Below, one piece after another: positions 6,695 to 54,068 of a stretch of DNA of 64,000 nucleotides (position 1 is the first letter of the stretch; every line of letters starts with the position of its first letter). Position numbers and translations under genes: made by a program. The stretch spans positions 1 through 64,000 of the forward strand of contig CANJPU010000027.1 of assembly GCA_947476285.1 (NCBI GenBank). The letters are read 5' to 3'. This stretch comes from Comamonadaceae bacterium (GTDB lineage Bacteria > Pseudomonadota > Gammaproteobacteria > Burkholderiales > Burkholderiaceae_C). The notes beneath the pieces are model-generated. The model was not told the origin of the DNA. It made no database searches and was given only the letters and a program-made list of their open reading frames with translations.

Positions 6695-6756
6695 ACAACG
6701 ACACGCCTGGCGCGGTGCACCAAAGGGAATTGCACGGAGACGCACAGAGGGGCGAT

Positions 6757-6868
6757 CAGGCCGCCACGTCCAGACGCCCTGGCGGCAAACCCGCGCAATA
6801 CCGTACGTGCATCTCTTCATAGGCCGACTCGATCTGCCTGGTGAACAACTTGCCATCGAACGGGGGAT
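6757..6868 (-). pseudogene. 3' remnant of a glycosyltransferase-41 / TPR O-GlcNAc-transferase-like gene
   Basis: Minus-strand C-terminal peptide PPFDGKLFTRQIESAYEEMHVRYCAGLPPGRLDVAA* resembles C-termini of SPINDLY/O-GlcNAc-transferase-like proteins; frame meets an IS-end-like sequence at about 6869-6893. Confidence 0.35.
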
Positions 6869-6893
6869 ATGGAGTACGTTCTTCGGGGGCAAG
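6869..6893. mobile_element. IS terminal-end relic
   Basis: gtacgttcttcgggggcaagatca closely matches gtacgtttttcgggggcaaggtca at 123..146 (2 mismatches over about 24 nt). Confidence 0.55.
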
Positions 6894-7012
6894 ATCAGGA
6901 TTTTTACTGTTACATTTTACGATCGATTCGCCTCCCAGAAGGATACGAACTTGCCGCTGAGTATCGTTGATGTTATGCTCACAGAGCAATACGTTTCTTT
7001 AAGGGGCGCATA

Positions 7013-7849
7013 TTGAGCGTAAACTATCACTTACAAACGAAGACGCTAGGCCCGCGAGCAGCGCAGCTCCTCACTGAGCTGAATGAGCTGCGCCGGTCTA
7101 CGTTCACCTTGTCGGATGTAGGCTCGATCACCGGCCTGTCGGCGGCATCGGCCCGCAATCTCGTGCACAAGGCCCAGCAGCGTGGCTTGGTGACGCGACT
7201 GAAGCCCGGTCTGTACAACCTCGTGCCGTTCGAGCTTGGCCGGGCCACTGAGCACGTCGACAGCCCATACCTGATCGCGCGTGAACTCGCCGGCACCGCG
7301 TCCTACTTCCTGTCGCATGGCACCGCGCTTGAACTACACCGCATGGTGACGCAGCCGAACTTCACCGTCTATGTGTCATGCACGCGGCGCGTGCGTCCAC
7401 AGACGATCGGCGGCTATGACTTTCGGTTTATTCACATCACTGCGGAACAGGAATTCGGTGTCGTGAAACACTGGATCGACAAAGAGCGATACGTGATGAT
7501 CAGCGACATGGAGCGCACCATCATCGATGGTCTGCGCCATCCGGCACTTGCCGGTGGTATCACCGAAGTTGCCAAGGGCTTGTGGATGAAGCGTGATTCA
7601 CTAAAGACCGCACGGCTGGAGGAATACGCACGACGGCTCGGCGTCGGTGCCGTGGTGCGTCGCCTCGGCTACCTGCTGGAACACTATGGTATCGCCGATG
7701 CATCGGCGCTGGAGCCCTTGCGCGGCATGCTGACGGCGACCTACCAGCGCCTCGATCCGTTGCTCCCCGCCGAGGGGGCTTTCGTCTCACGCTGGCGCCT
7801 CCAGCTCAATGTGACGCCCGAAGAACTCGATGCCGTGAGGCTTGGCTGA
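7013..7849 (+). CDS. AbiEi-family antitoxin (type IV toxin-antitoxin / abortive infection), TTG start
   Basis: N-terminal winged-helix-like segment, SHGTALELHRM, ISDMERTIIDGLRHP; overlaps the downstream AbiEii gene by 1 nt (TGATG). Confidence 0.85.
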   Translation: MSVNYHLQTKTLGPRAAQLLTELNELRRSTFTLSDVGSITGLSAASARNLVHKAQQRGLVTRLKPGLYNLVPFELGRATEHVDSPYLIARELAGTASYFLSHGTALELHRMVTQPNFTVYVSCTRRVRPQTIGGYDFRFIHITAEQEFGVVKHWIDKERYVMISDMERTIIDGLRHPALAGGITEVAKGLWMKRDSLKTARLEEYARRLGVGAVVRRLGYLLEHYGIADASALEPLRGMLTATYQRLDPLLPAEGAFVSRWRLQLNVTPEELDAVRLG

Positions 7850-8691
7850 TGATTCCTCAGCGCAACATTTCCCTGATCTCGAACACGCTGATGACCGCTG
7901 GCGGACGGCGTATCCCCGAGGCCGTCATCGAACGGGATTACGTGCTGGCCTGGTTCCTGACCGGCCTGGCTGGCCATCCGCTGCGCGACGTGTTGGCCTT
8001 TAAGGGCGGCACCGCCCTACGGCGATGCTGGTTCGAAGACTATCGGTTTTCGGAAGACCTGGATTTCACCTTGACCCGCCCGATCACCTTCGAAGAGATC
8101 CTGGTGGGGTTGGACGAAATCTTCGCGACCGTCGAAGCCGACTCAGGCCTGCGGATCGCGTTCGATCGCGAAGACCGGCACGGCCACCAGAACAGCCACA
8201 CCTTCTACCTGCGCTATCAGGGGCCATTGCCGACCGCGAACGACGTGAAGGTGGATATCACGATCAACGAAGTCGTGTGCTTCCCGCTGCAAGATCGTCC
8301 GATTCAGCGCATCTATGACAGCTTTGACGACTTGCCCGAAGGCCCGACCGTGAAGGTCTATGCCATCGAGGAGATTGTGGTTGAAAAGCTGTTGGCCTTG
8401 AGCGACCGAGCGCGTAACGAGCCACGCGACTTGTATGACCTTTGGTATCTGTTCGGTTCCACTGAATTGCGCATTGCTGAGATGCGCGCCGAACTTGATG
8501 CCAAGCTCGCACTGCGCCAGCGTGTCATTGCAGGCATGGAGCGAGCCATTGCGGCCAAGGAAGATCGTCTGCGGCGGCTCTGGGCCACTCGTCTCGCACA
8601 CCAGATGAGCCATTTGCCACCGTACGATGATGTCTTTCGGGAAGTGCTGCGTGCCGTTCGCGCTGCCGACTTGCCGAAGGCGGACGGCTGA
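7849..8691 (+). CDS. AbiEii-family nucleotidyltransferase toxin
   Basis: FKGGTALRRCWFEDYRFSEDLDFTL carries the GGTxLR...SEDLDF nucleotidyltransferase signature; VEKLLALSDRARNEPRDLYDLWYL. Confidence 0.9.
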   Translation: MIPQRNISLISNTLMTAGGRRIPEAVIERDYVLAWFLTGLAGHPLRDVLAFKGGTALRRCWFEDYRFSEDLDFTLTRPITFEEILVGLDEIFATVEADSGLRIAFDREDRHGHQNSHTFYLRYQGPLPTANDVKVDITINEVVCFPLQDRPIQRIYDSFDDLPEGPTVKVYAIEEIVVEKLLALSDRARNEPRDLYDLWYLFGSTELRIAEMRAELDAKLALRQRVIAGMERAIAAKEDRLRRLWATRLAHQMSHLPPYDDVFREVLRAVRAADLPKADG

Positions 8692-8799
8692 TCGGTTATC
8701 TACGTGCCAAAGAGAAGCGCCATGGCCGATTTGTCGTCCATAGAACGACGCAAACTAGAATGATTGCTTAGTATGGGTGGCGAGAAGTCAACTGCCGTT

Positions 8800-8822
8800 T
8801 TCAGGCTCATTCCCACTCGATC
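8800..8822. repeat. Partial duplication of the guaA 3' end (putative att-like site, left)
   Basis: ttcaggctcattcccactcgatc vs native guaA end ttcaggctcattcccactcaatc at 11214..11236 (22/23). Confidence 0.65.
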
Positions 8823-9061
8823 AGTCCGGTCTGACCTCTTTGTACGCGCGCCGTGAGCGTGCTTGCACACATGCTGGAGTCCAGAGGCATTGCCACCACG
8901 GTATTGGGTTTGGCCCGTCCGACCCTTGAGAAGGCAAAGCCACCGCGAAGCTTGTTCGTTCCGTTTGAGTTGGGCCGCCCAGTTGGCGAACCCAATGATG
9001 CAGCGTTCCAGGCGCGGGTGCTGCAGCAGGCTTTGGGTCTGCTGGATCGGCACGATGGCCC
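8821..9061 (+). repeat. 241-bp direct repeat, copy 2 (orphan fragment of the PrdB/GrdB-like gene with UGA at 8832-8834)
   Basis: 240/241 identity to 5937..6177 in the same orientation, 2884 bp apart. Confidence 0.95.
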
Positions 9062-9204
9062 CCACCGCTGGCCGCAAGCAGCACACGGCCCGCCAGAAAC
9101 AGGCAACCTACGGCATACAGGTGCTGATAGAGAAAGCCGCCATGAACCGCTTCGATACGTTTGATCTGGCGTGCATCCTGCACCTGATACGGCGACTCAT
9201 TCAC
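9062..9204 (-). pseudogene. Truncated third gene downstream of hipA (N-terminal ~48 aa only)
   Basis: GTG start at 9204 overlaps the hipA end; reads VNESPYQVQDARQIKRIEAVHGGFLYQHLYAVGCLFLAGRVLLAASGG, then runs abruptly into the antisense of the duplicated repeat. Confidence 0.5.
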
Positions 9205-10459
9205 CAGGTGGTCTTGCAAAGAAGAAACACTCGGGCAGGATGGCGGGAGCGATGTAGTCCAGGTCTTGGGCCGACACACCACACGCGAAGAAGCTCTGGC
9301 GCCATTGGCGCGCCACCATGACGATTTGATCAATTTCCTTGCGGGCATCTTCGGCCGACAGCCCGAAGCGGCCAGCCTGCGACAACAGGTTGTAGAGGCT
9401 GGCCGTGCGACCGTAGTTGCCCACGGTCAGTGCCAGGTCACGTCGCTCCAGGCTAACCACAGGGGTAGGCACCAGGTCATAGGCGGGCGATAGGCGCCAT
9501 CCCTTGGGCCGGCGCAGCAGCGCGTGATTGCGCGGGTGATCGTCGTTGTTGGTTACGGCGGCATTGAAGACCATGCGCCGGAACAGTTCAGCGCAATCGG
9601 CTTCGGGCTTGTCGGACCAGCGACGCAGGTTGTCGGCCAGCAGCGGATAGGACCAGCGTTCACGGTTCAGATAGCTGTCGTCGCAGTCCAGCACCGTCAG
9701 CCCACTGACCAGCCCAAAGCGCAAATAGCCCTTGTCCGTGTGTTCACGATCGAAGCGCTGCAGCATCAACACATCGCTGTCACCGACCGCCTGCAGGCGT
9801 GCCTGCGTGACGTTCAGGCCGCATCGGCGTGCGAGGTCGAGAGTGGCGTACTCGATGCGCTGCAGGTTGCAGCGATCATCTTTGGCGGGAAACTTGCCTA
9901 GCCATAGGCAGTTCGCATCCTCGACGGTGGCCTTGGGACGGGCACCGCCCATGCTGGTGCCGGGATCGAGCTGCTCCAGCAGATGCACGGGCAACGGCTT
10001 GCAGTCTTCGATGGCCTGCGCTGCGGCAATCAATTCAGCGAGCTGGTGGGTGCGGTTGTACTGGCGCTTGGGGGCGGGTGGTTCCGCCTTGAGGCCAAAG
10101 CTCAGATGGCCAGCACCATCCTGTGGACCGTGCAGCAGATAGTCGATTTCATGCAGATCACCGGCGGCGCGTTCGAGCTTGTGCTCGATGACCCGCCGCC
10201 CCCAGGCGTCTGGGCTCGCATCGCGCAGCGCGCCGGGGATGCCTTTGAGTTGGGTGAACTCGTGGACAGTTTTGTCCAGCGGCAGGCGGTACGGATCGAG
10301 TGCCACCGCTTCGGCACGCTGGAGATAGCGGTCGCCATAGCGAAAGCGGCCGATCTGCGTGCCGTCGGGCAGGGTCTGCACTTTCAGCAACGCCGCCGGC
10401 ACCGTATCCAGGGTGCCGGGAAGCTGGATATAGACGTAGGCTTCGCGTTCAGAAGTCAT
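9197..10459 (-). CDS. hipA: HipA-family kinase toxin
   Basis: SMGGARPKA (P-loop-like), FNAAVTNNDDHPRNHALL, LSPAYDLVPTP motifs of the HipA kinase fold. Confidence 0.9.
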   Translation of the reverse strand: MTSEREAYVYIQLPGTLDTVPAALLKVQTLPDGTQIGRFRYGDRYLQRAEAVALDPYRLPLDKTVHEFTQLKGIPGALRDASPDAWGRRVIEHKLERAAGDLHEIDYLLHGPQDGAGHLSFGLKAEPPAPKRQYNRTHQLAELIAAAQAIEDCKPLPVHLLEQLDPGTSMGGARPKATVEDANCLWLGKFPAKDDRCNLQRIEYATLDLARRCGLNVTQARLQAVGDSDVLMLQRFDREHTDKGYLRFGLVSGLTVLDCDDSYLNRERWSYPLLADNLRRWSDKPEADCAELFRRMVFNAAVTNNDDHPRNHALLRRPKGWRLSPAYDLVPTPVVSLERRDLALTVGNYGRTASLYNLLSQAGRFGLSAEDARKEIDQIVMVARQWRQSFFACGVSAQDLDYIAPAILPECFFFARPPGE

Positions 10460-10781
10460 AGTCGTTGCCGGTCTTGCGCGGTTTGCCCGCGCGAGTGGGA
10501 CGACGCGAAGCTTCGAGCGCCTTGCCATGAACATCGGTGTCCGGATCGGCCACCGCCTCCAGGGACTTTTCCAGGCCGAGCGCCCACAGCACGGTGAAGC
10601 AGACGCCGATGGCCGTGCCGGGCTTGCCGAGTTCCAGGGCCGTTAGGGTGTTGCGGTTGACCCCTGCCTTGCTGGCGAGGTCCACCACCGACCAGCCGCG
10701 ACGAATCCGCGCGACGCGGATGCGCAGGCCGAGCTGAGCGACACGCTCGGAGACATTTGACGGAATGGAAAAGTTGCTCAT
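10449..10781 (-). CDS. hipB: HipB-like XRE/HTH antitoxin (start 10781 or 10799)
   Basis: LGLRIRVARIRRGWSVVDLASKAGVNRNTLTALELGKPGTAI HTH; overlaps the hipA start. Confidence 0.85.
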   Translation of the reverse strand: MSNFSIPSNVSERVAQLGLRIRVARIRRGWSVVDLASKAGVNRNTLTALELGKPGTAIGVCFTVLWALGLEKSLEAVADPDTDVHGKALEASRRPTRAGKPRKTGNDYDF

Positions 10782-10806
10782 TATTTTGAGTTTATCCATG
10801 CTTAAC

Positions 10807-10822
10807 GCCTATCATAATAGGC
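10807..10822. promoter_or_regulatory. Candidate HipB operator: GCCTAT-CATA-ATAGGC
   Basis: 6-bp perfect inverted repeat immediately upstream of hipB; the half-site ataataggc recurs at 10867..10875. Confidence 0.55.
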
Positions 10823-10926
10823 AACTTATTCTTTTCACGCAAGCTACAAAAGCAAACGTGATGAAAATAATAGGCGCAACACAGGTCAATGGCAGGTTAA
10901 GTAGGCAAACTCTGCTTCCGCGCAAG

Positions 10927-11199
10927 TTAAGCGCTTGCTTTCCGCGCTGCCAGTTTTGCCTCAAGCAGACGATAGGCCCGCTTCTCATCAAGCTTCGGGA
11001 GCTTCGGTTCGTTCTGCAGGAGATCAGCCAGCACCGGCGTCACAACATCGAACAGTGCCGACGGCAGCGCTTCGCGGACTGCGCGCGGCTCCGCAAGATC
11101 CTCCAGCAGTCCCGACATTTCGCCGTGGGCGAGCTTGTTGCCGCCTTCTCGATAGACTTTGTGGACTGCGGCATCCACCGTGAGCGCGCCCTCGAGCAC
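10927..11199 (-). pseudogene. C-terminal gene remnant of unknown product abutting the guaA 3' end
   Basis: Frame TEDETVLEGALTVDAAVHKVYREGGNKLAHGEMSGLLEDL... begins directly beyond the guaA stop region with no proper upstream. Confidence 0.35.
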
Positions 11200-11220
11200 G
11201 GTCTCGTCCTCAGTTCAGGC

Positions 11221-12843
11221 TCATTCCCACTCAATCGTCGCCGGCGGCTTGCTGCTCACGTCGTAAGTCACACGATTGATGCCGCGCACCTCATTGATGA
11301 TGCGGCTGGAAACCTTCTTGAGCAGTGCGTAGGGCAGCTCGGCCCAGTCAGCGGTCATGAAGTCGCTGGTTTGCACGGCGCGCAGGGCCACGACGTAGTC
11401 GTAAGTGCGCCCATCGCCCATGACGCCCACGCTCTTGACTGGCAGGAACACGGTAAACGCCTGGCTGGTGAGCTCATACCAGTTCTTGCCGGAGGCTGCA
11501 TCTTTGAAGCTGCGCAGCTCTTCGATGAAGATCGCATCGGCACGGCGCAACAGGTCGGCGTATTCTTTCTTCACTTCGCCCAGGATGCGCACGCCCAGGC
11601 CTGGGCCTGGGAAGGGATGGCGGTACACCATTTCTGGTGGCAGGCCCAGGGCCACGCCGAGTTCACGCACTTCGTCCTTGAACAGATCGCGCAAAGGCTC
11701 CAGCAGTTTCAGACCTAGCTGTTCGGGTAGACCACCCACGTTGTGGTGGCTCTTGATGGTGACGGCCTTCTTGCTCTTGGCACCGCCCGATTCGATCACG
11801 TCGGGGTAGATGGTGCCTTGGGCCAGCCACTTGGCGCCCTTGTGGGCGCCATCGAGTCCCGCCTTCAGGCGCGCTGCCTCAGCCTTGAACACTTCGACGA
11901 ACTCACGTCCGATGATCTTGCGCTTGGCCTCCGGATCGCTCACACCCGCGAGCTTGCCAAGAAATGCTTCGCTGGCATCGACACGTATCACCCGCGCATG
12001 CAGCTTGCCGGCGAACATGTCCATCACCATGTCGCCCTCATTGAGGCGCAGTAGGCCATGATCAACGAACACGCAGGTGAGCTGATCGCCGATGGCTCGG
12101 TGAATAAGCGCCGCAGCCACCGAAGAATCAACGCCGCCTGACAAGCCCAGGATGACTTCTTCGTCGCCCACCTGTTGGCGTATGGCCTGCACCGCCTCTG
12201 CCACGTGGTCACGCATGACCCAATCGGGCTGCACAGCGCAGATGCCAAGCACAAAGCGCTCAAGAATCGCCTTGCCCTGCTGAGTGTGGGTGACCTCGGG
12301 GTGAAACTGAACCGCATAGAAGCGCCGCGCCTCATCGGCCATGCCGGCAATGGGACAGCTTTCGGTGGACGCCAGCAGCTTGAAGCCGGGCGGCAGCTGC
12401 GTCACCTTGTCGCCATGGCTCATCCAGACATTGAGCATGCCGTGGCCTTCACTGGTGGTGAAGTCGGCAATATCGCGCAGCAGTTCGGTGTGCCCGCGCG
12501 CGCGCACCGAGGCAAAGCCGAACTCGCGCTTGTGCCCGCCCTCGACCTTGCCGCCCAGCTGATGCGCCATGGTCTGCATGCCGTAGCAGATACCCAGCAC
12601 CGGCACACCCAACTCGAATACCGCCTGCGGTGCCTTGTCGGTGGTGTCTTCGTAAACGCTGGCATGGCTGCCGGAGAGGATCACGCCGCGCAGTGCGCCA
12701 TCGGCCGCGAACTGGCGCACCCAGTCGTCGCTGACATCGCAGGGGTGGACCTCGCAGAACACATGGGCTTCGCGCACGCGCCGTGCGATGAGTTGAGTGA
12801 CTTGCGAGCCAAAATCGAGAATGAGGATTTTCTGGTGTTGCAT
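11221..12843 (-). CDS. guaA: GMP synthase (glutamine-hydrolysing)
   Basis: [34 protein letters not shown]...[13 protein letters not shown]...KPPATIEWE. Confidence 0.97.
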
Positions 12844-27411: not shown

Positions 27412-28134
27412 GTGAAAGAGCAAGGAAAAGACCATCGCACAGTGAGTCGCGTCATGGGCATCCTGGAGCACGTCGCCAGACAAGGTGCTGGCGTGAAAAT
27501 GCCAGACCTGGTGCGGGAACTGGATGCCCCGCGCACTTCCTTGTACGGTTTGGTTGCCGGCCTGGTCTCCTGCGGCTATCTGCAGGCAGGCCCTGACGGC
27601 TTCACCCTGGGTCCCTCAGTCGGGGCGTTGGTCTCCACCCGCCGGACGATCGACGAGGTTGCCCGGCCCGCCCTTAGCCGGCTGTCTGAAGAGGTGGGCG
27701 AAACAGTCATGCTGGCCGTGCGAATCGGCGACTTTCTGGTCTATGTCGACGCGGTGGAGTCGGCGCAGCTGATACGCTACTCCGCACCCCTGTACGAGCG
27801 CCGTGAGCTCTATCCCGCGAGCTCCGGCAAATGCTTTCTCGCATTCGGCCCACAAAGCTTCACCGACCCGTACCTGAAGAAGTTCGTAAAGCCGGCGCCG
27901 CGTCAGGCCGTGCAGACCGAGTTGGCGAAAGTAGCGCGAATTGGTTATTCAGTGAATCGGGGTGAAACCATTCCAGACGTCACGGCTGTGGCCGTGCCGA
28001 TTCTCGTGCGCGAGCGCCTGGTCGCCTGCATCGCGGTGGCAGGGCCAAGCGTACGGATATCGAACGCGCAGATTCCGGTCATCGCCGGACACGCGCGCAA
28101 AGCCGCCCAGGCGGTGTCCGAACTCCTGCAGTGA
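27412..28134 (+). CDS. IclR-family transcriptional regulator
   Basis: VMGILEHVARQGAGVKMPDLVRELDAPRTSLYGLVAGLVSCGYL HTH followed by IclR effector domain. Confidence 0.88.
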   Translation: MKEQGKDHRTVSRVMGILEHVARQGAGVKMPDLVRELDAPRTSLYGLVAGLVSCGYLQAGPDGFTLGPSVGALVSTRRTIDEVARPALSRLSEEVGETVMLAVRIGDFLVYVDAVESAQLIRYSAPLYERRELYPASSGKCFLAFGPQSFTDPYLKKFVKPAPRQAVQTELAKVARIGYSVNRGETIPDVTAVAVPILVRERLVACIAVAGPSVRISNAQIPVIAGHARKAAQAVSELLQ

Positions 28135-36072: not shown

Positions 36073-36381
36073 TCAATCGGAGGCGGGCAGCTTGCGCGGC
36101 CCCATTTGCTGCAAAGGCTCCGCTCCCAGCGAAAGGCTGCCTGCGCCACCCCGCACGCACAGCACCTCCAGGACTGCGCCGCTCTTCTCATAGCGCTTAC
36201 CCAGAAGTGTTCCGTCGGCAAACGCTGGGTCCATGGATGTCGGTGGCTCTTGTGCATCGCTGGCTGCCCGCATCGCCGTCCCGCCGCAGCGCAGATCCAC
36301 GTCGCCAGCTTGCGCGCGCACGACCACCACCTCCGTTTCGCACACGGCACTTCGCAGGCGCGCTCCTGGTTTCAGATTCAT
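36073..36381 (-). CDS. Small protein of unknown function in acyl-CoA operon
   Basis: MNLKPGARLRSAVCETEVVVVRAQAGDVDLRCGGTAM...; coupled (4-nt overlap) to the upstream gene. Confidence 0.65.
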   Translation of the reverse strand: MNLKPGARLRSAVCETEVVVVRAQAGDVDLRCGGTAMRAASDAQEPPTSMDPAFADGTLLGKRYEKSGAVLEVLCVRGGAGSLSLGAEPLQQMGPRKLPASD

Positions 36382-37634
36382 TGTGCATCCTCGCGCGTGA
36401 CCGCACCACCCAGGTCGCGCGGGATGGGAAGTGGGACAAGACCGCTGGCTCGGGTGGGAAGCGCGACGGTTGCGGTGCCCACCGTCGTCACTTCACCACG
36501 CTGGTTGTCCGCATGAAGTTCCAGATCCACCAGCTTGTAGTCACCAACCACTCGCTTGCCCACGACACTTCCGCGCCACCAGAGCGTGTCTCCAAACAGA
36601 TTGGGACGCTTGAGGGTGGCCGAGAACTTGTGCAGCACGCCCTCGTCACCCATCCAATGGGTCACCAGGTTGCCACCCCAGGAAACCCGCTGAAAGCCCG
36701 AGTCGTAGGCGCCGCCCATGCCAATATCACCACCCACATCCGCCTCCAGGTGGCCACGGCCGGGCGATTGCTTCACCCCGGAATCCGAGATGTCGTAGTC
36801 CGCATGGCGCTGGCGATAGTGCACAGCGTCAGCATGGGCGCCCCCATAGGGGCGCGCACCCATCGCACCCGCGTAGAAGGCCACCATGTCGTTGGAGTTC
36901 AGTGGCCCCTTGACCACGGCGGGCAACTGCTCACCGACCTTCACGTCCTCGAAATAGCGAGGAACGGCACCACGGGGCGTCTCGCGCAGGATCTCGTTCT
37001 CGATGGCCTCGATCTCCTGCGCGGCATAGCGGTGTGGTGGCCTGCGCTCGTATTTCACCTTGCCTTCTTTCTTGAGCGCGGCGCCGCGCGGTGTGCGCGC
37101 ATTGCGTCCATAGGCCTCGGCGATGAGCAGCCCATCGGGGCGCTGGTAACGCGTATAGCCCGTCTGCAGCAGCCAACGGTTTGAGAAACGGCCGGTCTTC
37201 AAGTCCTGTGCGTGGAATGTCGTCACCGGACGGATCTCGTCTCCAAGGCGCACGACATCGTAGAAAGTCCAGTCCACGCCGGCATAGATCCATTGCAGTC
37301 CCGGCAGGCGCGGTGCGACGATCGTGTTGTCGAAGGCGAACAGGAACATCGGGGGCGCGATCAGCCCGCCCCAGCGTGTCTTGCTTGCGTACGCCGGGTC
37401 ACGGTAGAGTGGGTTGCGGTCGCCGATGCCTTCCACGAAATGGGCTATGGCGTCGCGCGTGGCCTGTGTCACCCACTGCATTCGGTCGCGCCGAAGCTGC
37501 GTGCCGAGCAGCGATGCCGCATCGGCGATCGCCGCATCGGTGAGCTCGCCCCATGGCTGTGCCACAGCCGGCTGTGCCTGCGTGGCTTGCGATTGTTCTT
37601 GTTCCATGGGCGTCTCGTCTCCTGTTCGGTTCAT
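36378..37634 (-). CDS. FAS1-like dehydratase/MaoC domain protein
   Basis: HFVEGIGDRNPLYRDPAYASKTRWGGLIAPPMFLFAFDNT; similar to the protein encoded at 52322..53482. Confidence 0.85.
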   Translation of the reverse strand: MNRTGDETPMEQEQSQATQAQPAVAQPWGELTDAAIADAASLLGTQLRRDRMQWVTQATRDAIAHFVEGIGDRNPLYRDPAYASKTRWGGLIAPPMFLFAFDNTIVAPRLPGLQWIYAGVDWTFYDVVRLGDEIRPVTTFHAQDLKTGRFSNRWLLQTGYTRYQRPDGLLIAEAYGRNARTPRGAALKKEGKVKYERRPPHRYAAQEIEAIENEILRETPRGAVPRYFEDVKVGEQLPAVVKGPLNSNDMVAFYAGAMGARPYGGAHADAVHYRQRHADYDISDSGVKQSPGRGHLEADVGGDIGMGGAYDSGFQRVSWGGNLVTHWMGDEGVLHKFSATLKRPNLFGDTLWWRGSVVGKRVVGDYKLVDLELHADNQRGEVTTVGTATVALPTRASGLVPLPIPRDLGGAVTREDAQ

Positions 37635-40122: not shown

Positions 40123-40956
40123 TCAGGCAGTCACTGCCACGCCGTAACCAAACGGATAGACGGTGCAGCCTACTCGTTGCGACAGGGTTCGCCCGGCGGC
40201 GTGCAGGGCGACGACCATTCGCGCTTCTTCTTCTTCGGTGACCGCATGGCTAGGGAAAGCCAAGCTGAGGGTGCCGATGGCCTCGGGCCCGCGACCGAAC
40301 ACCGGTGCCGATATCACCCCAAGGCCAGGTGTCGTTTCACCCCGCTGCACCGAATAGCCTTGGGCCCGCGCCTGATCGATCAGGCGGTCAATTTCAGCGG
40401 GCTCGGTCACTGTGAATTCAGAAATTCGTTCTAGTGGTTGCTGAACCCGCAGGCGCTGCGAGCGCTCTCGGTCTATGAAAGCCAACAAGACGCGACCCGC
40501 CGAAGTGGAGTGAACCGGCAGCCAGGTGCCCGCACGCCAGCCGGTATCGACAAACAAGGGGCCTTCGATTCCCAGAAGGTAAAGCACCCGGTCGCCGTCG
40601 AGCACCGACAGCCGGGCACTGTGGCCGGTTTTGTTGACCAAATCTCGCATCACCGGCATTGCACCTCGGCTGAGCGTATCGAAGGTGACGTAGCGCGAGC
40701 CCAGCACAAAGAGTCTGGCACCCGCCTGGTAGCGCCGTGATTCCACGTGCTGGCTGAGCAAGCCGAACTCGGCAAAGGTCGCCAGAACCTTTGACACTTG
40801 GCTCTTGGACAGCTTGCAGCGCTCGGCGAGCTCACCCACTCCAAAATCTTGTCGCTCGCCGGCAAATTCCATCAGCACACGCAAAGCCGAACGCAGGGAT
40901 TTCATGCCCTCGGCATCTGCCCCCGCGCTCGACTTGTCGGTCAGGTCTTGCTCCAT
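40123..40956 (-). CDS. IclR-family transcriptional regulator
   Basis: SALRVLMEFAGERQDFGVGELAERCKLSKSQVSKVLATFAEFGLL; IclR effector domain. Confidence 0.88.
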   Translation of the reverse strand: MEQDLTDKSSAGADAEGMKSLRSALRVLMEFAGERQDFGVGELAERCKLSKSQVSKVLATFAEFGLLSQHVESRRYQAGARLFVLGSRYVTFDTLSRGAMPVMRDLVNKTGHSARLSVLDGDRVLYLLGIEGPLFVDTGWRAGTWLPVHSTSAGRVLLAFIDRERSQRLRVQQPLERISEFTVTEPAEIDRLIDQARAQGYSVQRGETTPGLGVISAPVFGRGPEAIGTLSLAFPSHAVTEEEEARMVVALHAAGRTLSQRVGCTVYPFGYGVAVTA

Positions 40957-45010: not shown

Positions 45011-46111
45011 TTACCCGCGCGCGCTCATGTGTGCCTGCACAAGCGCCTCGTCGATGGGCAAGCCCAGGCCTGGGCCAGTGGGCGCTGCGACCTCACCCTT
45101 GATGATGTCCAGCGAGCCCTGCCAGATGGACGGCCAACCCGGCCATAGCTCCACACCCGATGCGTTTGGCGTGGCGCACATCAAGTGCACATTGAGCTCG
45201 GGATAAACATGCCCCGCCATTTCAATGCCTGCTATTTCCGCGGCAGCCGCGATTTTTCGCCAGCCTGTGATGCCGCCAACGCGCTGCAGGTTGGGCATCA
45301 AGATGTCGCAGGATCGTTCGCTGATAGCGCGGCCCGCTGCCGCGACCCCGAACAGGTTCTCGCCAGTTGCCAGATCCATTGAGATGGCGCTGCGCACCTG
45401 TGCATGGCCGTAAAAGTCGTCGGCGCGCACCGGCTCCTCCAGCCAGCGCAGCTCGCAATCGTCCATGGCGCGTGCCCAGCGAATCGCGCCTTTTGCGCTC
45501 CACTGCTGATTGCCATCCACTGCGATAGAAACTTTCGCTCCGACCGCATCGCGCACAGCCAGGATTCGCTCGCGGTCACCCTCGATGCCGTGTCCGGCCT
45601 TGATCTTGATGGCGGTGTGCCCCTTGGCGACAAAACCTTCGGCTTCACGGCACAAGGCATCGATTGACAGGGAAAGGGAGCCGCCGCTGGCATAGGCGTT
45701 TGTCTTCTCGCGCGCACCACCGAGCAATTGCCACAGCGGTTTGCCAAGGCACTTTCCAGCCAGGTCCCACAAGGCCATATCAATTGCCGACAACGCCGCC
45801 AAGGCAACCCCAGTGGGCCCCGCGATGGCAAGCAGTTGGTGCATCTCGCGCCAGTGCCGTTCTATGGCGAGCGTCTCCATACCGATTCGGGTATCGCCAA
45901 GCGATCGGGCGATGTGCAGAACGGGCAGAGCGTCGGCCGCTCCAAAAGCAAAGGCGACTCCGGCCCCCTCAACGCCCTGGTCATCGCGGATACGCACCAA
46001 CACCACGTCCACACTATCGATCAGCCTGATCGCAGCCCGAAATGGCGGCGATAGGGGAAAGCACAAGGCCGTTGTGCTGATCGATGCAATGCGGGACGCT
46101 GCAGTAGACAT
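45011..46111 (-). CDS. Mandelate racemase/muconate lactonizing enzyme family (enolase) 2
   Basis: IKIKAGHGIEGDRERILAVRDAVGAKVSIAVDGNQQWS...LEEPVRADD. Confidence 0.88.
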   Translation of the reverse strand: MSTAASRIASISTTALCFPLSPPFRAAIRLIDSVDVVLVRIRDDQGVEGAGVAFAFGAADALPVLHIARSLGDTRIGMETLAIERHWREMHQLLAIAGPTGVALAALSAIDMALWDLAGKCLGKPLWQLLGGAREKTNAYASGGSLSLSIDALCREAEGFVAKGHTAIKIKAGHGIEGDRERILAVRDAVGAKVSIAVDGNQQWSAKGAIRWARAMDDCELRWLEEPVRADDFYGHAQVRSAISMDLATGENLFGVAAAGRAISERSCDILMPNLQRVGGITGWRKIAAAAEIAGIEMAGHVYPELNVHLMCATPNASGVELWPGWPSIWQGSLDIIKGEVAAPTGPGLGLPIDEALVQAHMSARG

Positions 46112-47220
46112 CAGCCCTTGAATTCGCGCGCCCGACGGCGGACTTGCGCGACATCGAAGCGGTTGATCTCGTCGATCAATTCGTTGCTGTAGATCGATTT
46201 TGGATCGAGTTGCTTGTCCACATCCCCAATCTTCTTGAGCATGTTGACGTAGGTGTTGACGTCCACTTCATGCATGAAGCCCCATTTGTCGCGCTTGACC
46301 ACCATGTTGTCGATGCGCATGTTGGTCAGGCGGGCCATCAGCGAGCGCCGGCCCAGCGCGAGCGCGGTGGCGTCGTCCACATTCGATGGGCGCTGCTCAG
46401 GATAGCGCTTGAAGTGAATGCGAACCGCAGCGTCCGGGTTCTCCAGCGCAAAAACGGTGCTCTTGGCGTGCGCGCGGCCCAGGCGAATCAAGGCATCGCG
46501 CTTGTTCTTGAGCGTCTCTGGCTTGACAACCAAAGCAGTCTGGAAACTGATTCTGTCTGACAAGGGCGAGGTAAGAATGCGCAGCTTGTATTTTTCGGGG
46601 TTGACGCTTTCAATGGCCGAATAAACGCTGTCGTACATTGCGAGCGCATCGACCTGCTTGGTCAGCCAAAGTGCAGCGGCCGCCTGTGCGCCGTAGCCCA
46701 CGTCGACAAAGGTCACGGAGTTGGGGTCAATGCCCGCGTCTTCCAGCACTGCCTTGACGATGGGCACGGTGGCAGTGGCCTGGCCGATCACGCCGAGCTT
46801 CTTGCCTTTCAGATCAACAAGACTACGGATCGGGCTTTCCGCGGGAACAGCCGGCATCTGGAAATTTTGCGTGATCATGTTGTAGAAAGCCACCAGCGGG
46901 GAGCCCTTGGATGCCGGCACCATCAGACCCACTGAGGTACCGGCGTGCACGATATCGGCCTGCCCTGTAATGACCAACTGAGCCCCCAGAGCAGATCCGC
47001 GCGCCGACTTAAGTTCGACGTCCAATCCTTCTTCTTCGAAGAAACCTGCCGCGTAGGGCACTGAAGTCTGGGTAGCCGTGCCCACTTCAAAGGTGGCGGA
47101 TGACACCACCCAAACAAGTTTCTGCTTGGCTCCTTGAGACCAGGAGAGCCCGGGAAGTCCAGAGGTGGCTGCCGCAGCGGCGCTACCAAGAAGCTGTCGA
47201 CGGGTAAACGAATTGGACAT
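46111..47220 (-). CDS. ABC transporter substrate-binding protein (NMT1/SsuA-like), twin-arginine-type leader
   Basis: MSNSFTRRQLLGSAAAAATSGLPGLSWSQ...YAAGFFEEEGLDVELKSARGSALGAQLVITGQADIVHAG. Confidence 0.88.
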   Translation of the reverse strand: MSNSFTRRQLLGSAAAAATSGLPGLSWSQGAKQKLVWVVSSATFEVGTATQTSVPYAAGFFEEEGLDVELKSARGSALGAQLVITGQADIVHAGTSVGLMVPASKGSPLVAFYNMITQNFQMPAVPAESPIRSLVDLKGKKLGVIGQATATVPIVKAVLEDAGIDPNSVTFVDVGYGAQAAAALWLTKQVDALAMYDSVYSAIESVNPEKYKLRILTSPLSDRISFQTALVVKPETLKNKRDALIRLGRAHAKSTVFALENPDAAVRIHFKRYPEQRPSNVDDATALALGRRSLMARLTNMRIDNMVVKRDKWGFMHEVDVNTYVNMLKKIGDVDKQLDPKSIYSNELIDEINRFDVAQVRRRAREFKG

Positions 47221-47251
47221 AAGATCCCCTCATTGAAAAGCTCAAAACAGA

Positions 47252-47268
47252 GTTTCCCAATAATAAAC
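47252..47268. promoter_or_regulatory. Candidate operator GTTTC-N7-TAAAC
   Basis: GTTTCCCAATAATAAAC in the divergent promoter region between the substrate-binding protein and cyclase genes. Confidence 0.4.
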
Positions 47269-47351
47269 TGCGTACTTGAACTGCAAAAGGAATTTTTCGG
47301 TTTCGAAGTCCGTGTTTGCCCTTAGCTTCAAAGCCTTCACGAGGGAAATAG

Positions 47352-48347
47352 ATGCACATTCCGACCTACGAAGAATTGCTGCAACGCACCGATGCCCCCG
47401 CTGGATCAGCATGGGGCGTATTTGGCCCGCATGACGAAATTGGCACGCTCAATTTTCTAACACCCGAGTGCATGCGCGATGCAGCCCGCCTGGTGCGACG
47501 CGGTCAGGCGTTTAATCTCGACCACCGGCTGGACGCTTTCCACCCGCCAGTTGCGCGGCACCGCCATGCGCCCAGCCACACGATCTTCAGCAACAGCCCC
47601 CACCACCGCGATGACCGCATCGACGGCTTGTATCTGCAGGGCACCACGCAAGTGGACAGCCTGCGCCACTTCAGACACCCCGACCATGGCTTCTACAACC
47701 ACACGCCCGATGAAAAGGTCGTGGTTGGTTCCCCCACGATTGGCGTCAACAGGTACGCTGAGCGCGGTATCGCCGGACGCGGTGTCTTGCTCGACATTGA
47801 CCGGCATTTGCGCCGCAGCGGCAAGTCGCTTGATTTTCGACAAGGCGAATCGTTTTCGGTGGACTTGCTGGACGAAGTCGCCCAAGCGCAAGGTGTCCAA
47901 TTTCGCCATGGCGACATCCTGTTGATGCGCACAGGCTGGCTGGCCTTCTATTTCAACGAAATGACACCGCAAGAGCAACTGGCTTTACCCGAGAAACTCA
48001 TGTGCCCCGGCCTGGAGCAGGCCCATCGCACCTTGGCGTGGCTTTGGGACCACCGCATCTCAGTCATCGCGTCCGATAACCTGGGAGTTGAGGCTATTCC
48101 CTCGCGGGCCGACTCGCCTTTTGTATCCAACTATGACCGTGCCGCAGCCACAGACCCAATCCATTCAGGGCTCATGCATCCGACTATCATCGCGTTGCTC
48201 GGCTTCTGTCTGGGCGAGTTGTGGGACCTTGAAGCACTGGCACAAGACTGTGCAAGTACTGGCGTGTATGAATGCTTTCTCACCTGCAAACCGCTGAACA
48301 TGACCGGCGGTGTGGGCTCGCCCGCCAACGCGCTGGCGATGGTGTAG
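47352..48347 (+). CDS. Cyclase family protein (kynurenine-formamidase-like fold)
   Basis: TQVDSLRHFRHPDHGFYN...AERGIAGRGVLLDIDRHL; metal-binding cyclase signature. Confidence 0.82.
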   Translation: MHIPTYEELLQRTDAPAGSAWGVFGPHDEIGTLNFLTPECMRDAARLVRRGQAFNLDHRLDAFHPPVARHRHAPSHTIFSNSPHHRDDRIDGLYLQGTTQVDSLRHFRHPDHGFYNHTPDEKVVVGSPTIGVNRYAERGIAGRGVLLDIDRHLRRSGKSLDFRQGESFSVDLLDEVAQAQGVQFRHGDILLMRTGWLAFYFNEMTPQEQLALPEKLMCPGLEQAHRTLAWLWDHRISVIASDNLGVEAIPSRADSPFVSNYDRAAATDPIHSGLMHPTIIALLGFCLGELWDLEALAQDCASTGVYECFLTCKPLNMTGGVGSPANALAMV

Positions 48348-48387
48348 AGAACCCTACGCGACGGGCGCGGCCTGAGCCTGCGGGCGC

Positions 48388-49245
48388 TTAGGCGACAACG
48401 CGCCCACAAGGCTCACCGACCAAGGTGGTGCGATACATCACTCGCGGTTCAGCGTGCTGGTGGTCGGCCACTGCCATGTGCAGTGTGCAGCGGTTGTCCC
48501 ACAGCACGATGTCGTGCTGCTTCCACGCGTGCCGGTAGGTGAACTCCATCCGGGTCTGCTGCTTGAAAAGGTAATTGAGGATGAGGTCGCTTTCCTCGCG
48601 TGACATGCCAACGATGTCGGTGCTGAGGGCTTCGCTGACATACAGGGCCTTGCGGCCGGTTTCGTCATGCACCCTGACCACCGGTTGCGCAATGCGGGGG
48701 TTTTGCATTTTCATGTCACGCACCTGACCCTGGTCGAGGTCTTCCTTATTCTTGTTCTTTGAAAACAATTCGTGCACTGACTGAAGCGGCTCGATCATTT
48801 CGCGAAAGGCAGGTGACAGCCCTTCATATGCCAGGTATTGGTTTGCAAAGGCCGTCGTGCCTCCCACCTGGGGAATCTGGACACACCGAAGCATGGAGCC
48901 CATTGCCGGCTTTGAGGTGAACGAGAGGTCCGAGTGCCAGTGACGCGCGTTGTTCGCGGTCTGGGACACCGTCCCATCGGCATTCATGTTGGTCAGAAGG
49001 AAGATTTCCGGAAAGCCCGGCAACCGATACGGCACCAAGGGATATTCCTCGACCAAGCCAAGCTGACGGGTGAATCGGATTTGCTGCTGCGGCGTGATGT
49101 CCTGGCCGGGGAACACCAGCACCAAATGCTCAAGCCATGCGCGCCTGATAGCGTCCACCGTCGCCGAGTCGAGATCCGTGCGCAAATCGACCCCGCTTAC
49201 TTGCGCACCCAGCGCAGAGGTCAGTGGCCTTACCTGTAGATCCAT
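48388..49245 (-). CDS. TauD/TfdA-family Fe(II)/2-oxoglutarate dioxygenase
   Basis: NARHWHSDLSFTSKPAMGSML (HxD), YRHAWKQHDIVLWDNRCTLHMAVAD, RVMYRTTLVGEP. Confidence 0.9.
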   Translation of the reverse strand: MDLQVRPLTSALGAQVSGVDLRTDLDSATVDAIRRAWLEHLVLVFPGQDITPQQQIRFTRQLGLVEEYPLVPYRLPGFPEIFLLTNMNADGTVSQTANNARHWHSDLSFTSKPAMGSMLRCVQIPQVGGTTAFANQYLAYEGLSPAFREMIEPLQSVHELFSKNKNKEDLDQGQVRDMKMQNPRIAQPVVRVHDETGRKALYVSEALSTDIVGMSREESDLILNYLFKQQTRMEFTYRHAWKQHDIVLWDNRCTLHMAVADHQHAEPRVMYRTTLVGEPCGRVVA

Positions 49246-49255
49246 TTGAAGCCTT

Positions 49256-49272
49256 GTTTCTGTAAGGGAAAC
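49256..49272. promoter_or_regulatory. Candidate operator GTTTC-N7-GAAAC (overlaps GGGAAA-CCATA-TTTCCC at 49266..49282)
   Basis: GTTTCTGTAAGGGAAAC in the divergent dioxygenase/aldolase promoter region. Confidence 0.55.
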
Positions 49273-49344
49273 CATATTTCCCACGAAGGAATCATAGACA
49301 GTACACTCGTTGAACGTCAAGCGTGCATCACGCGAGGAGGCTTT

Positions 49345-50127
49345 ATGAAGAGTGACGACTTGAGTTCAATCGCCATTACCACTGCGCCGGCTGGCATGTC
49401 TGAAGTGGAGTGGCAACTGCGGGTAGACCTCGCCGCCTGCTACCGGCTGTTTCATCACTTCCGCATGACGGACCTGATCTACAACCACATCTCAGCTCGT
49501 GTGCCCGGGCCCGACCAGCACTTCCTGATCAACCCCTACGGATTGATGTATGAAGAGGTCACGGCCTCCAGTCTGGTCAAGGTGGATGTGCAGGGCAAGG
49601 TTATCCACGACCCGCTGGGCATGGGCGTCAACCCAGGTGGCTTCACCATCCACAGCGCGGTCCACATGGCGCGGCACGATGTGCAATGTGTGATGCACAC
49701 GCACACTGCAGCAACCATTGCCGTGGCCACCATGGAGTGCGGATTGCTTGGGCTGACCCAGCATGCGATGCGTTTCATGGACCGCATTGCATACCACCGC
49801 TACGACGGAATTTTCTTCACCGACGAAGAAAGGCAACGCTTGAAGCAAGGCCTGGGTGACAAGATGGTGATGCTGCTGCGAAACCACGGCACCCTGGTGT
49901 GCGGCCGCTCCGTCGGAGAAGCTTTCGACACCATGTATTACCTTGAACGCGCCTGCCAGAGTCAGGTGACCCTCATGTCTTGCGGCCAGGCATTGGTACA
50001 CCCGTCCCCCGAGGCGGCGCAGCAGGTTGCACTGGCCTTTGAATCACCCAAGCGCCAGGGTGGCGACAAGACATGGCCCGCGATGTTGCGGCTGGTGCAG
50101 AGGGAGTATCCCGACTACTGTCGATGA
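49345..50127 (+). CDS. Class II aldolase/adducin family protein
   Basis: LIYNHISARVPGPDQHFLINPYGLMYEEVTASSLVKVD...MHTHTAATIAVA...LLRNHGTLVCG. Confidence 0.92.
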   Translation: MKSDDLSSIAITTAPAGMSEVEWQLRVDLAACYRLFHHFRMTDLIYNHISARVPGPDQHFLINPYGLMYEEVTASSLVKVDVQGKVIHDPLGMGVNPGGFTIHSAVHMARHDVQCVMHTHTAATIAVATMECGLLGLTQHAMRFMDRIAYHRYDGIFFTDEERQRLKQGLGDKMVMLLRNHGTLVCGRSVGEAFDTMYYLERACQSQVTLMSCGQALVHPSPEAAQQVALAFESPKRQGGDKTWPAMLRLVQREYPDYCR

Positions 50128-50150
50128 GTGTCCAAGCCGGCAGGCCGTGA

Positions 50151-51677
50151 TCACTCTGCAGTGATCGTTTGCGCTTCAAGCAAAGCGCGACAGGCCGCCA
50201 GATCGACTTTGCCGCTGCCCAAGCGCGGCAAGGCCTGCACAAAGGCCACGCTTCTCGGAATCTTGTAAGCCCCCAGCGCCGCACGACACGCCTTGTCGAT
50301 CTGCGGGCGACTCAACTGCGGGTCAGACGCAACGACGACTGCCGCCACGCGCTGACCCAGACGTTCGTCCGGCAGCCCAAGCACCACTGCATCGCTGACT
50401 TGCGGCATGGCCAAGAGCACTGACACCACCTCGTCGGGAAACACGTTTTCACCGCCGGTCTTGATCATGTGGTCATCACGCCCCAGGAAGTGGAGATTTC
50501 CCTCGGGGTCGATGAAGCCAAGATCCGCAGTAGGCTGCCAACCGCCGTCGTAGCTTGGCACGAAGCGAATGTAGGCGCCGTCCCAATAGCCAGGAGATAC
50601 ACCGTCGCCCTTGAAGCAGACTTCGCCGATGACGCCATCGGCACATCGCAGCTTGGTGCTGGGATCGATGATGGCAAGCTCGCTGCTATTTCGGTTGGGC
50701 AGGCCGTTATGGTCGAAGCGCCGCTTCGTGATGTCCAGTGGGTTGTAGCTGAGCCCGCCCTCTGTTCGGCTATAGCCTTGCAGGAACACACCCCCAACGC
50801 GCTCTTCGAAGGCAAGGAAACTATCCGGGCTGAGCGAATGCCCGCCGCCCCAGGTGAAGCGCATCCGGCTTCTTCCCTTCAGCGGCTCGAACACGGCGGC
50901 CGGCGCACTGGCAATGTCAACGACCAGAGTGCCGATCATGTGCATGAAAGTCACCCTCTCCTTGGCCACCAGTTGGACGAATTGATCAAGATCCCATTTC
51001 TCCTGCAGGATCAGCGTGCATCCCGCAAAGATGGCATTGGAAAAGACGCTCAGGCCACTGGTGTGAAAGAGCGGCGAGATGCAAAGAGCCACGTCACGGC
51101 CGGAAAGCTCGAAGCAATCCGCCATCGCCGCAGCAACCGCCACACGCATGCCGTGGGTGTGGATGGCGGCTTTTGGGGTGGAGGTTGTGCCCGATGTGTA
51201 CAGCAGATTGGCCACGTCGGCACTCTGACAAGGAGCGGCACGGTATCGCGGCTGCGCATCCTGGATCGCACTCCAGAAGCTTCCCTCTTTGGTGTTGTCG
51301 CCCAGGCTCATTAGCAGGGCGCTGCCCTTCAGATGGCTGCCGAGCTCCTGGGCGCGCTCTTGCGTGGTCAGAAGACAGCCGGGCTTGCAATGCGCCACCA
51401 CGCGGTACAACTCTTGGCCGGCCAGACGCCAATTCAAGGGCACCGCAACAACGCCCGCCTTCATGCACCCCAGCAGCGTGATCACCGCCTCTGCCCGGTT
51501 GGGCAAGAGCACCGCCATCCGATCGCCGCGGCCCATTCCCCTGTGTGACAGCGTGGCCGCCAATCGGTTCGACCAACTGTCCAGCTCTGCCCACGTCAGA
51601 CGTAAACGCTGATCGACCAGAGCCAGATCGTCAGGAGACGTCCTGGCCTTGATCTCCAGGAACAACGCGAAATTCAT
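50151..51677 (-). CDS. AMP-dependent acyl-CoA synthetase/ligase
   Basis: LLYTSGTTSTPKAAIHTHG; GEVCFKGDGVSPGYWDG; GRDDHMIKTGGENVFPDEVV. Confidence 0.92.
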   Translation of the reverse strand: MNFALFLEIKARTSPDDLALVDQRLRLTWAELDSWSNRLAATLSHRGMGRGDRMAVLLPNRAEAVITLLGCMKAGVVAVPLNWRLAGQELYRVVAHCKPGCLLTTQERAQELGSHLKGSALLMSLGDNTKEGSFWSAIQDAQPRYRAAPCQSADVANLLYTSGTTSTPKAAIHTHGMRVAVAAAMADCFELSGRDVALCISPLFHTSGLSVFSNAIFAGCTLILQEKWDLDQFVQLVAKERVTFMHMIGTLVVDIASAPAAVFEPLKGRSRMRFTWGGGHSLSPDSFLAFEERVGGVFLQGYSRTEGGLSYNPLDITKRRFDHNGLPNRNSSELAIIDPSTKLRCADGVIGEVCFKGDGVSPGYWDGAYIRFVPSYDGGWQPTADLGFIDPEGNLHFLGRDDHMIKTGGENVFPDEVVSVLLAMPQVSDAVVLGLPDERLGQRVAAVVVASDPQLSRPQIDKACRAALGAYKIPRSVAFVQALPRLGSGKVDLAACRALLEAQTITAE

Positions 51678-51685
51678 GGGCGACC

Positions 51686-52120
51686 TTAGCCGCGCGCACC
51701 TTTCTCAAGCTCGGCGATGTAGTCCACAACCTTGTAGCCGGTAACGCCCCAGGTTGTCACGCCGCACACATGCATCACCTGCATGCAAGCCTCGGCCAAC
51801 TCGCCGGACGTCATGCCAGCCATGAATGCTGCGTGCCCATGATTCTTTGCGCCCTCCAGATTGCCAGTGACGATGTCGAGCACGGTGTAGAGAAACTCTT
51901 TGGTCTTCAAATCAAGGTGGGCGCCGTCGCTCTGCTTGCGATACACAGACTCTCTGAATTTCAGATAGCCAACAAAGGTGTGCGGCACATGGTCCATCAT
52001 GGCCCTGATGGGCTCGGGCAAGTTGCCCAAGGTCTCCATGAAATGCGCCTTGCCGCGCGCAACGCCTGCCTGCAGGTCCAATTCTTCCGACTTCGTGTTT
52101 TCGCCCATTGCATGCTCCAA
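51686..52120 (-). CDS. Carboxymuconolactone decarboxylase family protein
   Basis: LDLKTKEFLYTVLDIVTGNLEGAKNHGHAAFMAGMTSGELAEACMQV. Confidence 0.82.
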   Translation of the reverse strand: MEHAMGENTKSEELDLQAGVARGKAHFMETLGNLPEPIRAMMDHVPHTFVGYLKFRESVYRKQSDGAHLDLKTKEFLYTVLDIVTGNLEGAKNHGHAAFMAGMTSGELAEACMQVMHVCGVTTWGVTGYKVVDYIAELEKGARG

Positions 52121-52145
52121 GAGAACTATTGTGGTGAGAATCAGT

Positions 52146-52162
52146 GTTTGCTATTGAGAAAC
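52146..52162. promoter_or_regulatory. Candidate operator GTTTG-N7-GAAAC
   Basis: GTTTGCTATTGAGAAAC in the divergent promoter region. Confidence 0.45.
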
Positions 52163-52283
52163 TACGTTGCCGATCCTACGCGATCTGCTTTGCCGACGTC
52201 AAACTCAGGCTGTATCGCCAGCGAGGGTGCCCGTTTGCTTGACAGATGCCAAGCTCCAAACGATACTTTTCCAGGGAAACATA

Positions 52284-52300
52284 GTTTCTCCCTAAGAAAC
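52284..52300. promoter_or_regulatory. Candidate operator GTTTC-N7-GAAAC (arms extend to AGTTTCT/AGAAACT)
   Basis: GTTTCTCCCTAAGAAAC 21 bp upstream of the ATG at 52322. Confidence 0.55.
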
Positions 52301-52321: not shown

Positions 52322-53482
52322 ATGTCACAGGGCGCACCCGCAAACCAACACCTTCTCGCCCCCGAAATGGGCCCTGAGGCTTTAGCCGAAGCTCGCCGCT
52401 TGATCGGCATGCCGATCAGGGTCGAACAGTGGAACTACGAGGCGAGCCGCGACGTGATCCGCCACTACAGCTGGGGCCTGGGCGATGACAATCCGCTTTA
52501 CGAAGACCCTGCTTATGCGGCCAAGACAAAGTGGGGCGGCATCATCGCGCCACCCACGTTCTTCTTTGGCATTTTTGATGCCGTTGTGTCGCCAGGTCTG
52601 CCTGAAATTCAGTGGTACTACTCGGGCATCGACGCCGAGTTCTATCACCCGATTCGGCGCGGCGATGAAATCACCGCATCAGCCGAGTACGTTGATGTGA
52701 AGCCTTTGTCGGGCAAGCTGGTCAAGCAGCTTCTGGTGCAAACGGGCGATGTGCGCTATCACAACCAAAAGGGCGAATTGGTCACCAAGGTTCTGTCGCA
52801 CACTTTCCGTGTAGCGCGTCAGGGCGCGGCCGGCGGCCTGCACTATGAGGCGCGTGCCAAGCAGGAATACACCCCAGAGCAGCTTGACGAAATCATGAAC
52901 CAGACCCTGTCAGAGTTCCGCCAGGGTGACAAGATCCGTTATTGGGAAGACGTTGAAGTGGGTGCCGCCCTGCCCGGCACGGTGCGCGGCCCCTTGAACC
53001 AGATGGACATGACAGCCTACTACGCGGGTGCGGTGGGCACATCGGGCTATAAGTCCACCAAGCTGAAGTGGAAGTACACCCACTGGGCCCGCACCGACAA
53101 CGACAAGCTGCCGAACAACTACGACAAGTGCTATTACGGTGCTGCGGTGCTGCCGAGCATCGGGCACCAGGATGCTGCCGTAGCCGTCAAGGATCTGGGC
53201 ATGCCCGGCCCCTATGACAACGGTCCCCAGCGCATTGGCATGCTGGCTGGCTGCGCCACGAACTGGATGGGTGATGACGGTGTCATGACTCGCCTCAGCG
53301 CACGCCTGAAGCTCCCTGTGATTTTCGGAGACACCACCTACACCAAGGGCCGTGTCACTGGCAAGCGCATTGAGGACAACAAAGGCCTGGTCGATCTGGA
53401 ACTGTGGGCCGAAAACCAGTTGGGTCAAATCACGCTCAGCGGCACCGCCACCGTCGCCTTGCCGCGTCGCGCTGCCGCGTAA
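52322..53482 (+). CDS. FAS1-like dehydratase/MaoC domain protein
   Basis: YSWGLGDDNPLYEDPAYAAKTKWGGIIAPPTFFFGIFDAVVSPGLPEIQWYYSGIDAEFYHPI; similar to the protein encoded at 36378..37634. The ORF-track start at 51770 is far too early. Confidence 0.86.
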   Translation: MSQGAPANQHLLAPEMGPEALAEARRLIGMPIRVEQWNYEASRDVIRHYSWGLGDDNPLYEDPAYAAKTKWGGIIAPPTFFFGIFDAVVSPGLPEIQWYYSGIDAEFYHPIRRGDEITASAEYVDVKPLSGKLVKQLLVQTGDVRYHNQKGELVTKVLSHTFRVARQGAAGGLHYEARAKQEYTPEQLDEIMNQTLSEFRQGDKIRYWEDVEVGAALPGTVRGPLNQMDMTAYYAGAVGTSGYKSTKLKWKYTHWARTDNDKLPNNYDKCYYGAAVLPSIGHQDAAVAVKDLGMPGPYDNGPQRIGMLAGCATNWMGDDGVMTRLSARLKLPVIFGDTTYTKGRVTGKRIEDNKGLVDLELWAENQLGQITLSGTATVALPRRAAA

Positions 53483-53487
53483 ACGCG

Positions 53488-53814
53488 TCAGGCGAAAAGC
53501 GTGGCAACTTTCGCCAGCACTTCGTCCATGACGGCGTCTGGCAGGGTGTCCACCTTGCGAGCGTGGCGGGCAACCAGGTCAATCACGCGCGGCTGATCGC
53601 AGCGTACGACGCCGGTGGTCTTGATGCCGGTCACGGGCACCGCGAAGCCCAGGCGGCGGGCGAACTCACCGCCGTTGGTGATTGGCAGGATCACCGGCAA
53701 CTTGGTGGCCTCGTTGAATTCGACGGGCGACACGACCAGAACGGGACGGCTACCGCTTTGCTCATGCCCTGCGGTCGGATCGAGCGACACCAGGTAAATG
53801 TCGCCGCGCTTCAT
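53488..53814 (-). CDS. MazF/PemK-family endoribonuclease toxin
   Basis: MKRGDIYLVSLDPTAGHEQSGSRPVLVVSPVEFNEATKLPVILPITNGG. Confidence 0.92.
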   Translation of the reverse strand: MKRGDIYLVSLDPTAGHEQSGSRPVLVVSPVEFNEATKLPVILPITNGGEFARRLGFAVPVTGIKTTGVVRCDQPRVIDLVARHARKVDTLPDAVMDEVLAKVATLFA

Positions 53815-54068
53815 AGCAGTTCGCCGCCCACCGCGGACGCATCGACCCATTCACGTTCGTCGGCTGGTTGCGGCTGCGAATAGTCTGAGGCAGCCAACAG
53901 CTCCGCTAGCGTGTAGTGCGGCCGCGGTCTGGGGTTGACCACCAAGCAGCCGTGATCGACGGCCAAGCCGACGGTCGCACCGGCTTGCAGATGCAGTTGA
54001 TCGAGAAAGGCTGGTGGGACGGCCAACATGATCGATCCACCCACTTTGCGCAGATTGGTTGTGTGCAT
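53811..54068 (-). CDS. MazE/AbrB-type antitoxin
   Basis: MHTTNLRKVGGSIMLAVPPAFLDQLHLQAGATVGLAVDHGCLVVNPRPRP; 4-nt overlap with toxin. Confidence 0.9.
   Translation of the reverse strand: MHTTNLRKVGGSIMLAVPPAFLDQLHLQAGATVGLAVDHGCLVVNPRPRPHYTLAELLAASDYSQPQPADEREWVDASAVGGELL

Follow-up and report, generated by a model that had tools for sequence, protein, structure and literature searches.

Regulators of the IclR family recognise palindromic operators that comparative genomics has sorted into two main forms, the group 1 motif GKTYCRYW3-4RYGRAMC and the group 2 motif TGRAACAN1-2TGTTYCA (Suvorova and Gelfand 2021; PMC8222616). Many of these operators are composite. Three-box sites with alternating half-sites were predicted for 32 orthologous groups, tandem sites spaced by 18–22 nt for 94, and three-box sites have been reported for PcaU, PobR and HmgR (PMC8222616). 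The catabolic gene cluster described here lies in the window, that is the whole 64 kb stretch of DNA that we analysed, and its operators share with the three-box and tandem sites of that survey (PMC8222616) the GAAAC/GTTTC half-site, the alternating boxes, a 20 bp tandem and the position upstream of genes. Each site here shows both an N7 pairing as in group 1 and an N3 pairing as in group 2. The local regulon is real and its operator is of a known, conserved type, ordinary in kind and useful in its detail.

Two further described systems come close. The gammaproteobacterial KdgR box RWWGAAACGNCGTTTCAKKA (PMC8222616, Table 1) has the core GAAAC-N3-GTTTC in common with the sites in our cluster, which differ from it in the pathway genes that they accompany, in the GGGAAAC arms of the best sites and in the presence of a third and a fourth box. 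The boxes of PcaR, PcaU and PobR read GTNCG where those in the cluster read GTTTC, and among the cluster genes examined we recognised none of the beta-ketoadipate pathway.

The sequence-only reading had proposed a 17-bp operator, GTTTC-N7-GAAAC, at four places between divergently transcribed genes. Upon re-reading the window, we found all four sequences where it had put them, starting at 47252 (A), 49256 (B), 52146 (C) and 52284 (D), in three intergenic regions of one catabolic cluster: A is flanked by the genes for the substrate-binding protein (SBP) and the cyclase, B by those for the TauD-family dioxygenase and the aldolase, and C and D share the region between the CMD-family and MaoC genes (Table 1). 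The arms are perfect in B and D, and A and C carry one mismatch each.

The 17-mer is the middle of a larger element, GAAAC-N3-GTTTC-N7-GAAAC(-N3-GTTTC), and corresponds to the junction of two GAAAC-N3-GTTTC palindromes whose centres lie 20 bp apart. The left GAAAC box, which was absent from the motif as first described, occurs at offset -8 from the GTTTC in four of four sites with at most one mismatch; its chance occurrence in this DNA is about 3% per site. B and C contain a further GTTTC-like box 20 bases after the first GTTTC. The cluster operators thus contain palindromes of both the group 1 and the group 2 type, and tandem centres 20 nt apart, within the 18–22 nt seen in many but not all IclR groups, occur in the window at operators B and C and, in another genome, at L053:3066 (contig G326:C114); A and D stop at three boxes.

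Table 1. Operators, predicted promoters and genes of the cluster, with their positions in the window.
Feature	Position	Strand	Description
Operator A	47244..47268	+	AAAAC-N3-GTTTC-N7-TAAAC, three boxes, 2 mismatches in 15
Operator B	49248..49280	+	GAAGC-N3-GTTTC-N7-GAAAC-N3-ATTTC, four boxes, 2 mismatches in 20
Operator C	52138..52170	+	GAATC-N3-GTTTG-N7-GAAAC-N3-GTTGC, four boxes, 3 mismatches in 20
Operator D	52276..52300	+	GAAAC-N3-GTTTC-N7-GAAAC, three boxes, perfect
Possible weak fifth palindrome	50436..50452	+	GGGAAACACGTTTTCAC, inside ligase gene, 2 mismatches
Predicted promoter of SBP gene run	47260..47287	-	TTTGCA-16-TATTAT, consensus match only
Predicted TauD promoter	49291..49320	-	TTGACG-18-TATGAT, consensus match only
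Predicted CMD-ligase promoter	52173..52202	-	TTGACG-18-TAGGAT, consensus match only
Predicted MaoC promoter	52239..52267	+	TTGACA-17-GATACT, consensus match only
IclR-family regulator, proposed cognate repressor	40123..40956	-	Pfam HTH_IclR and IclR_C, both above cut-off
NMT1/THI5-like ABC substrate-binding protein (SBP)	46111..47220	-	First gene of minus-strand run
Cyclase-family protein	47352..48347	+	PF04199
TauD-family dioxygenase	48388..49245	-	
Class II aldolase family protein	49345..50127	+	
AMP-forming acyl-CoA ligase	50151..51677	-	
CMD-family protein, first of CMD-ligase pair	51686..52108	-	PF02627
MaoC-type dehydratase	52322..53482	+	PF13452/PF01575

At a tolerance of one mismatch, A–D are the only matches to GTTTC-N7-GAAAC in the window. 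At two mismatches the pattern is found 18 times against 19.1 expected, which is the level of chance, so the mismatch tolerance matters. Pattern searches of the genome (4.89 Mb) returned 64 places when one mismatch was allowed, six of them perfect, a frequency that predicts 0.066 sites (about 0.07) per 5.05 kb, where we see four. The genome-wide enrichment that the sequence-only reading had put forward as a check did not appear (64 places against 177 for a reversed control pattern); what stands is the concentration at the cluster. The nine one-mismatch sites that we inspected elsewhere all lie inside long open frames. GTTTC-N7-GAAAC is a local feature rather than a global one.

The longer forms of the operator are much more selective. 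GRGAAAC-N3-GTTTCYC with up to one mismatch occurs at three places genome-wide, two of which are in this cluster. The third, C26:7830, was set aside because no IclR gene was seen in the 8 kb inspected there and because it sits between the ends of a desaturase-like and a thioredoxin-reductase-like gene. With up to two mismatches, the three-box pattern yields 13 rows genome-wide, eight of them at A–D and at one promoter in the cluster of an IclR paralogue on contig C18 of the same genome. This paralogue is 50% identical to the 40123..40956 protein, and the divergent promoter of its catabolic gene run carries GAAATAGCGTTTCTAATACAGAAAC, with the operator at C18:62639. Separately, a perfect GTTTCAGAGACTGAAAC elsewhere in this genome, at G000:C11:75250 (L001, position ~1501), lies ~500 bp before a TauD-like gene and is possibly a further target or a site of the paralogue.

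The operator also recurs in other genomes, where the site is conserved upstream of orthologous genes. In a member of another genus (G326), contig C114 carries a syntenic SBP and two enolase-superfamily proteins (75, 73 and 53% identical), and its divergent promoter region contains a four-box site matching in 19 of 20 letters (position 3066) and a D-like site (3252); another operator match follows at 10144. Contig C421 of the same genome holds a gene run with IclR (52% identity) and MaoC homologues, headed by GGGAAACTTTGTTTCTC, with a second site at a distance of 41 bp. An alphaproteobacterial metagenome-assembled genome (L019) encodes a 70%-identical cyclase with GTAACCAAGTTTCTTAAAAAGAAACTTGGTTTC ~80–110 bp ahead of the start; on the opposite strand this reads as a perfect three-box site, which occurs nowhere else in the 2.3 Mb searched. 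No IclR gene is visible beside the operators of L019 and G326:C114 because those contigs end. A Variovorax plasmid encodes IclR, MaoC, CMD and ligase homologues, with a partial operator (three mismatches) between the IclR gene and the divergent genes, and G401 encodes a 50%-identical IclR, the presumed start of whose gene run lies off the contig. As a side observation, G326:C114 (L053, positions 1–12463) also encodes a branched-chain-type ABC transporter and several proteins of the enolase superfamily.

In a gap-free alignment of the nine clearest sites, the central boxes are invariant in their GTTT and AAAC. When a weight matrix trained solely on sites outside the window was scanned over the window, B, D and C came out as its top three places, and the second palindrome in each of B and C took ranks 4 and 5. 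Operator A, the weakest of the four, ranks seventh with 11.9 bits, a score reached at ~1.9 places per window by chance and not significant alone. The matrix gives no support to the fifth palindrome, at whose score ~6 places are expected by chance.

A four-box search of 301 genomes of the family found matches in two, this genome and G127. Order-level (E <= 1e-75) and own-genus (E <= 1e-70) searches returned no further IclR homologue, although the large searches scored six candidates per genome and may have passed over some. A cyclase probe found no close relatives in the 300 other family genomes; cyclase relatives elsewhere are mostly actinobacterial, and a three-box site with up to two mismatches is absent at the eleven cyclase-relative loci L016–L018 and L020–L027.

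These observations point to a single local regulator, as had been proposed from the sequence, and the likeliest one is the IclR-family protein encoded at 40123..40956: the motif is of the published IclR type, recurs at clusters with homologues of this protein and lies on predicted promoters. We consider it highly probable that A–D are operators of this protein, the cluster's own regulator. It is 33% identical to Klebsiella KdgR and scores 131.2 bits with the NCBIfam KdgR model (cut-off 275); its best hit is the PcaR/PcaU/PobR model (143.8 against a cut-off of 284.75), and the BhcR model likewise hits below its cut-off. Because it fails these curated cut-offs, we file it only as a member of the IclR family.

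The placement of the sites suggests how control may be exerted. The region contains six predicted sigma-70-like promoters against 1.4 expected by chance, and four of these are at the four sites. Operator A overlaps the predicted -10 element of the SBP promoter, and B, C and D start 10, 2 and 8 bases past the predicted -10 elements of the TauD, CMD and MaoC promoters, where they would cover the presumed transcription start. This geometry, with operators on or just after the predicted -10, fits repression by occlusion. The cyclase and aldolase promoters show no consensus sigma-70 match; at these genes the start codon follows ~80–90 bp after the site.

What the DNA shows directly is the sites themselves, how they are built, that they are conserved and where they stand with respect to consensus promoters; from this we infer binding by IclR, its tetrameric form, the direction of control, the existence of an inducer and the continuity of the operons. 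Three or four alternating half-site boxes would seat two dimers, that is a tetramer, side by side at a distance of about two helical turns. As long as inducer is absent, IclR would sit over the -10 and start region and block transcription from the SBP, TauD, CMD-ligase and MaoC promoters; those of the divergent cyclase and aldolase genes would probably be blocked as well. A substrate or intermediate of the pathway would then release it. The minus-strand run that starts with the SBP gene also includes enolase-superfamily, ABC, Fe-ADH and IclR genes, and because the IclR gene belongs to this run headed by operator A, autoregulation is probable. The ligase, which had been counted in the regulon, apparently belongs to it through the CMD operon and site C and not by a site of its own.

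It is most improbable that A–D are palindromes which arose by chance because intergenic DNA is rich in AT. The two-mismatch count in the window and the flat genome-wide frequency would suit such an origin, but in 20,000 shuffles of the DNA from the three intergenic regions (443 bp, 45% GC) the mean was 0.0135 sites and none reached three, and the operator has been kept in different genera and at different loci. A genuine operator could still serve another regulator. The window encodes a second IclR-family protein (27412..28134, plus strand; PF09339, PF01614), and this protein or the C18 paralogue, each a family member or close homologue, might use the sites. We think this improbable: the 27412..28134 protein is only 17.5% identical to that of 40123..40956 and lies ~20 kb away, and the operator loci of relatives contain homologues of the 40123..40956 protein and no close homologues of the other. 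What speaks for it is that the cluster of the C18 paralogue has the same operator, so that cross-talk between the two regulators is likely.

Regulators of the PcaR/PcaU/PobR type, to which the 40123..40956 protein is related, include activators, and it could act at these sites as an activator or dual regulator instead of a simple repressor. The distance of the sites from the cyclase and aldolase start codons would agree with this. At the SBP, TauD, CMD and MaoC genes, however, the sites lie on the predicted -10 or just beyond it, which fits repression, and we regard activation or dual control as unlikely. Repression by the cluster's own IclR protein is the reading that we carry forward. A more speculative idea, to which we give little credence, is that the dimer switches register on one operator, pairing GTTTC-N7-GAAAC in one state (for example, ligand-bound) and GAAAC-N3-GTTTC in the other; this would be directly testable on the three-box (A, D) versus four-box (B, C) operators.

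With these sites, an uncharacterised IclR regulator gains a concrete putative operator and regulon, and transporter, cyclase, dioxygenase, aldolase, ligase and dehydratase genes are grouped as one regulated pathway. Since the paralogous C18 cluster carries this operator too, the two clusters are predicted to be cross-regulated in the same cell, and the mixture of three-box and four-box sites offers a natural series for testing alternative dimerisation in the IclR family.

The surroundings yielded three minor observations. A CaiB-type CoA-transferase gene and a tripartite-tricarboxylate-type SBP gene lie within ~6 kb after 27412–28134. The cluster encodes a pair of proteins of the MaoC/FAS1-dehydratase type that agree in their domains, at 52322–53482 and 36378–37634. 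Next to the end of the cluster, a frame on the minus strand (53488–53850), judged by eye from its sequence, resembles a PemK/MazF-type toxin.
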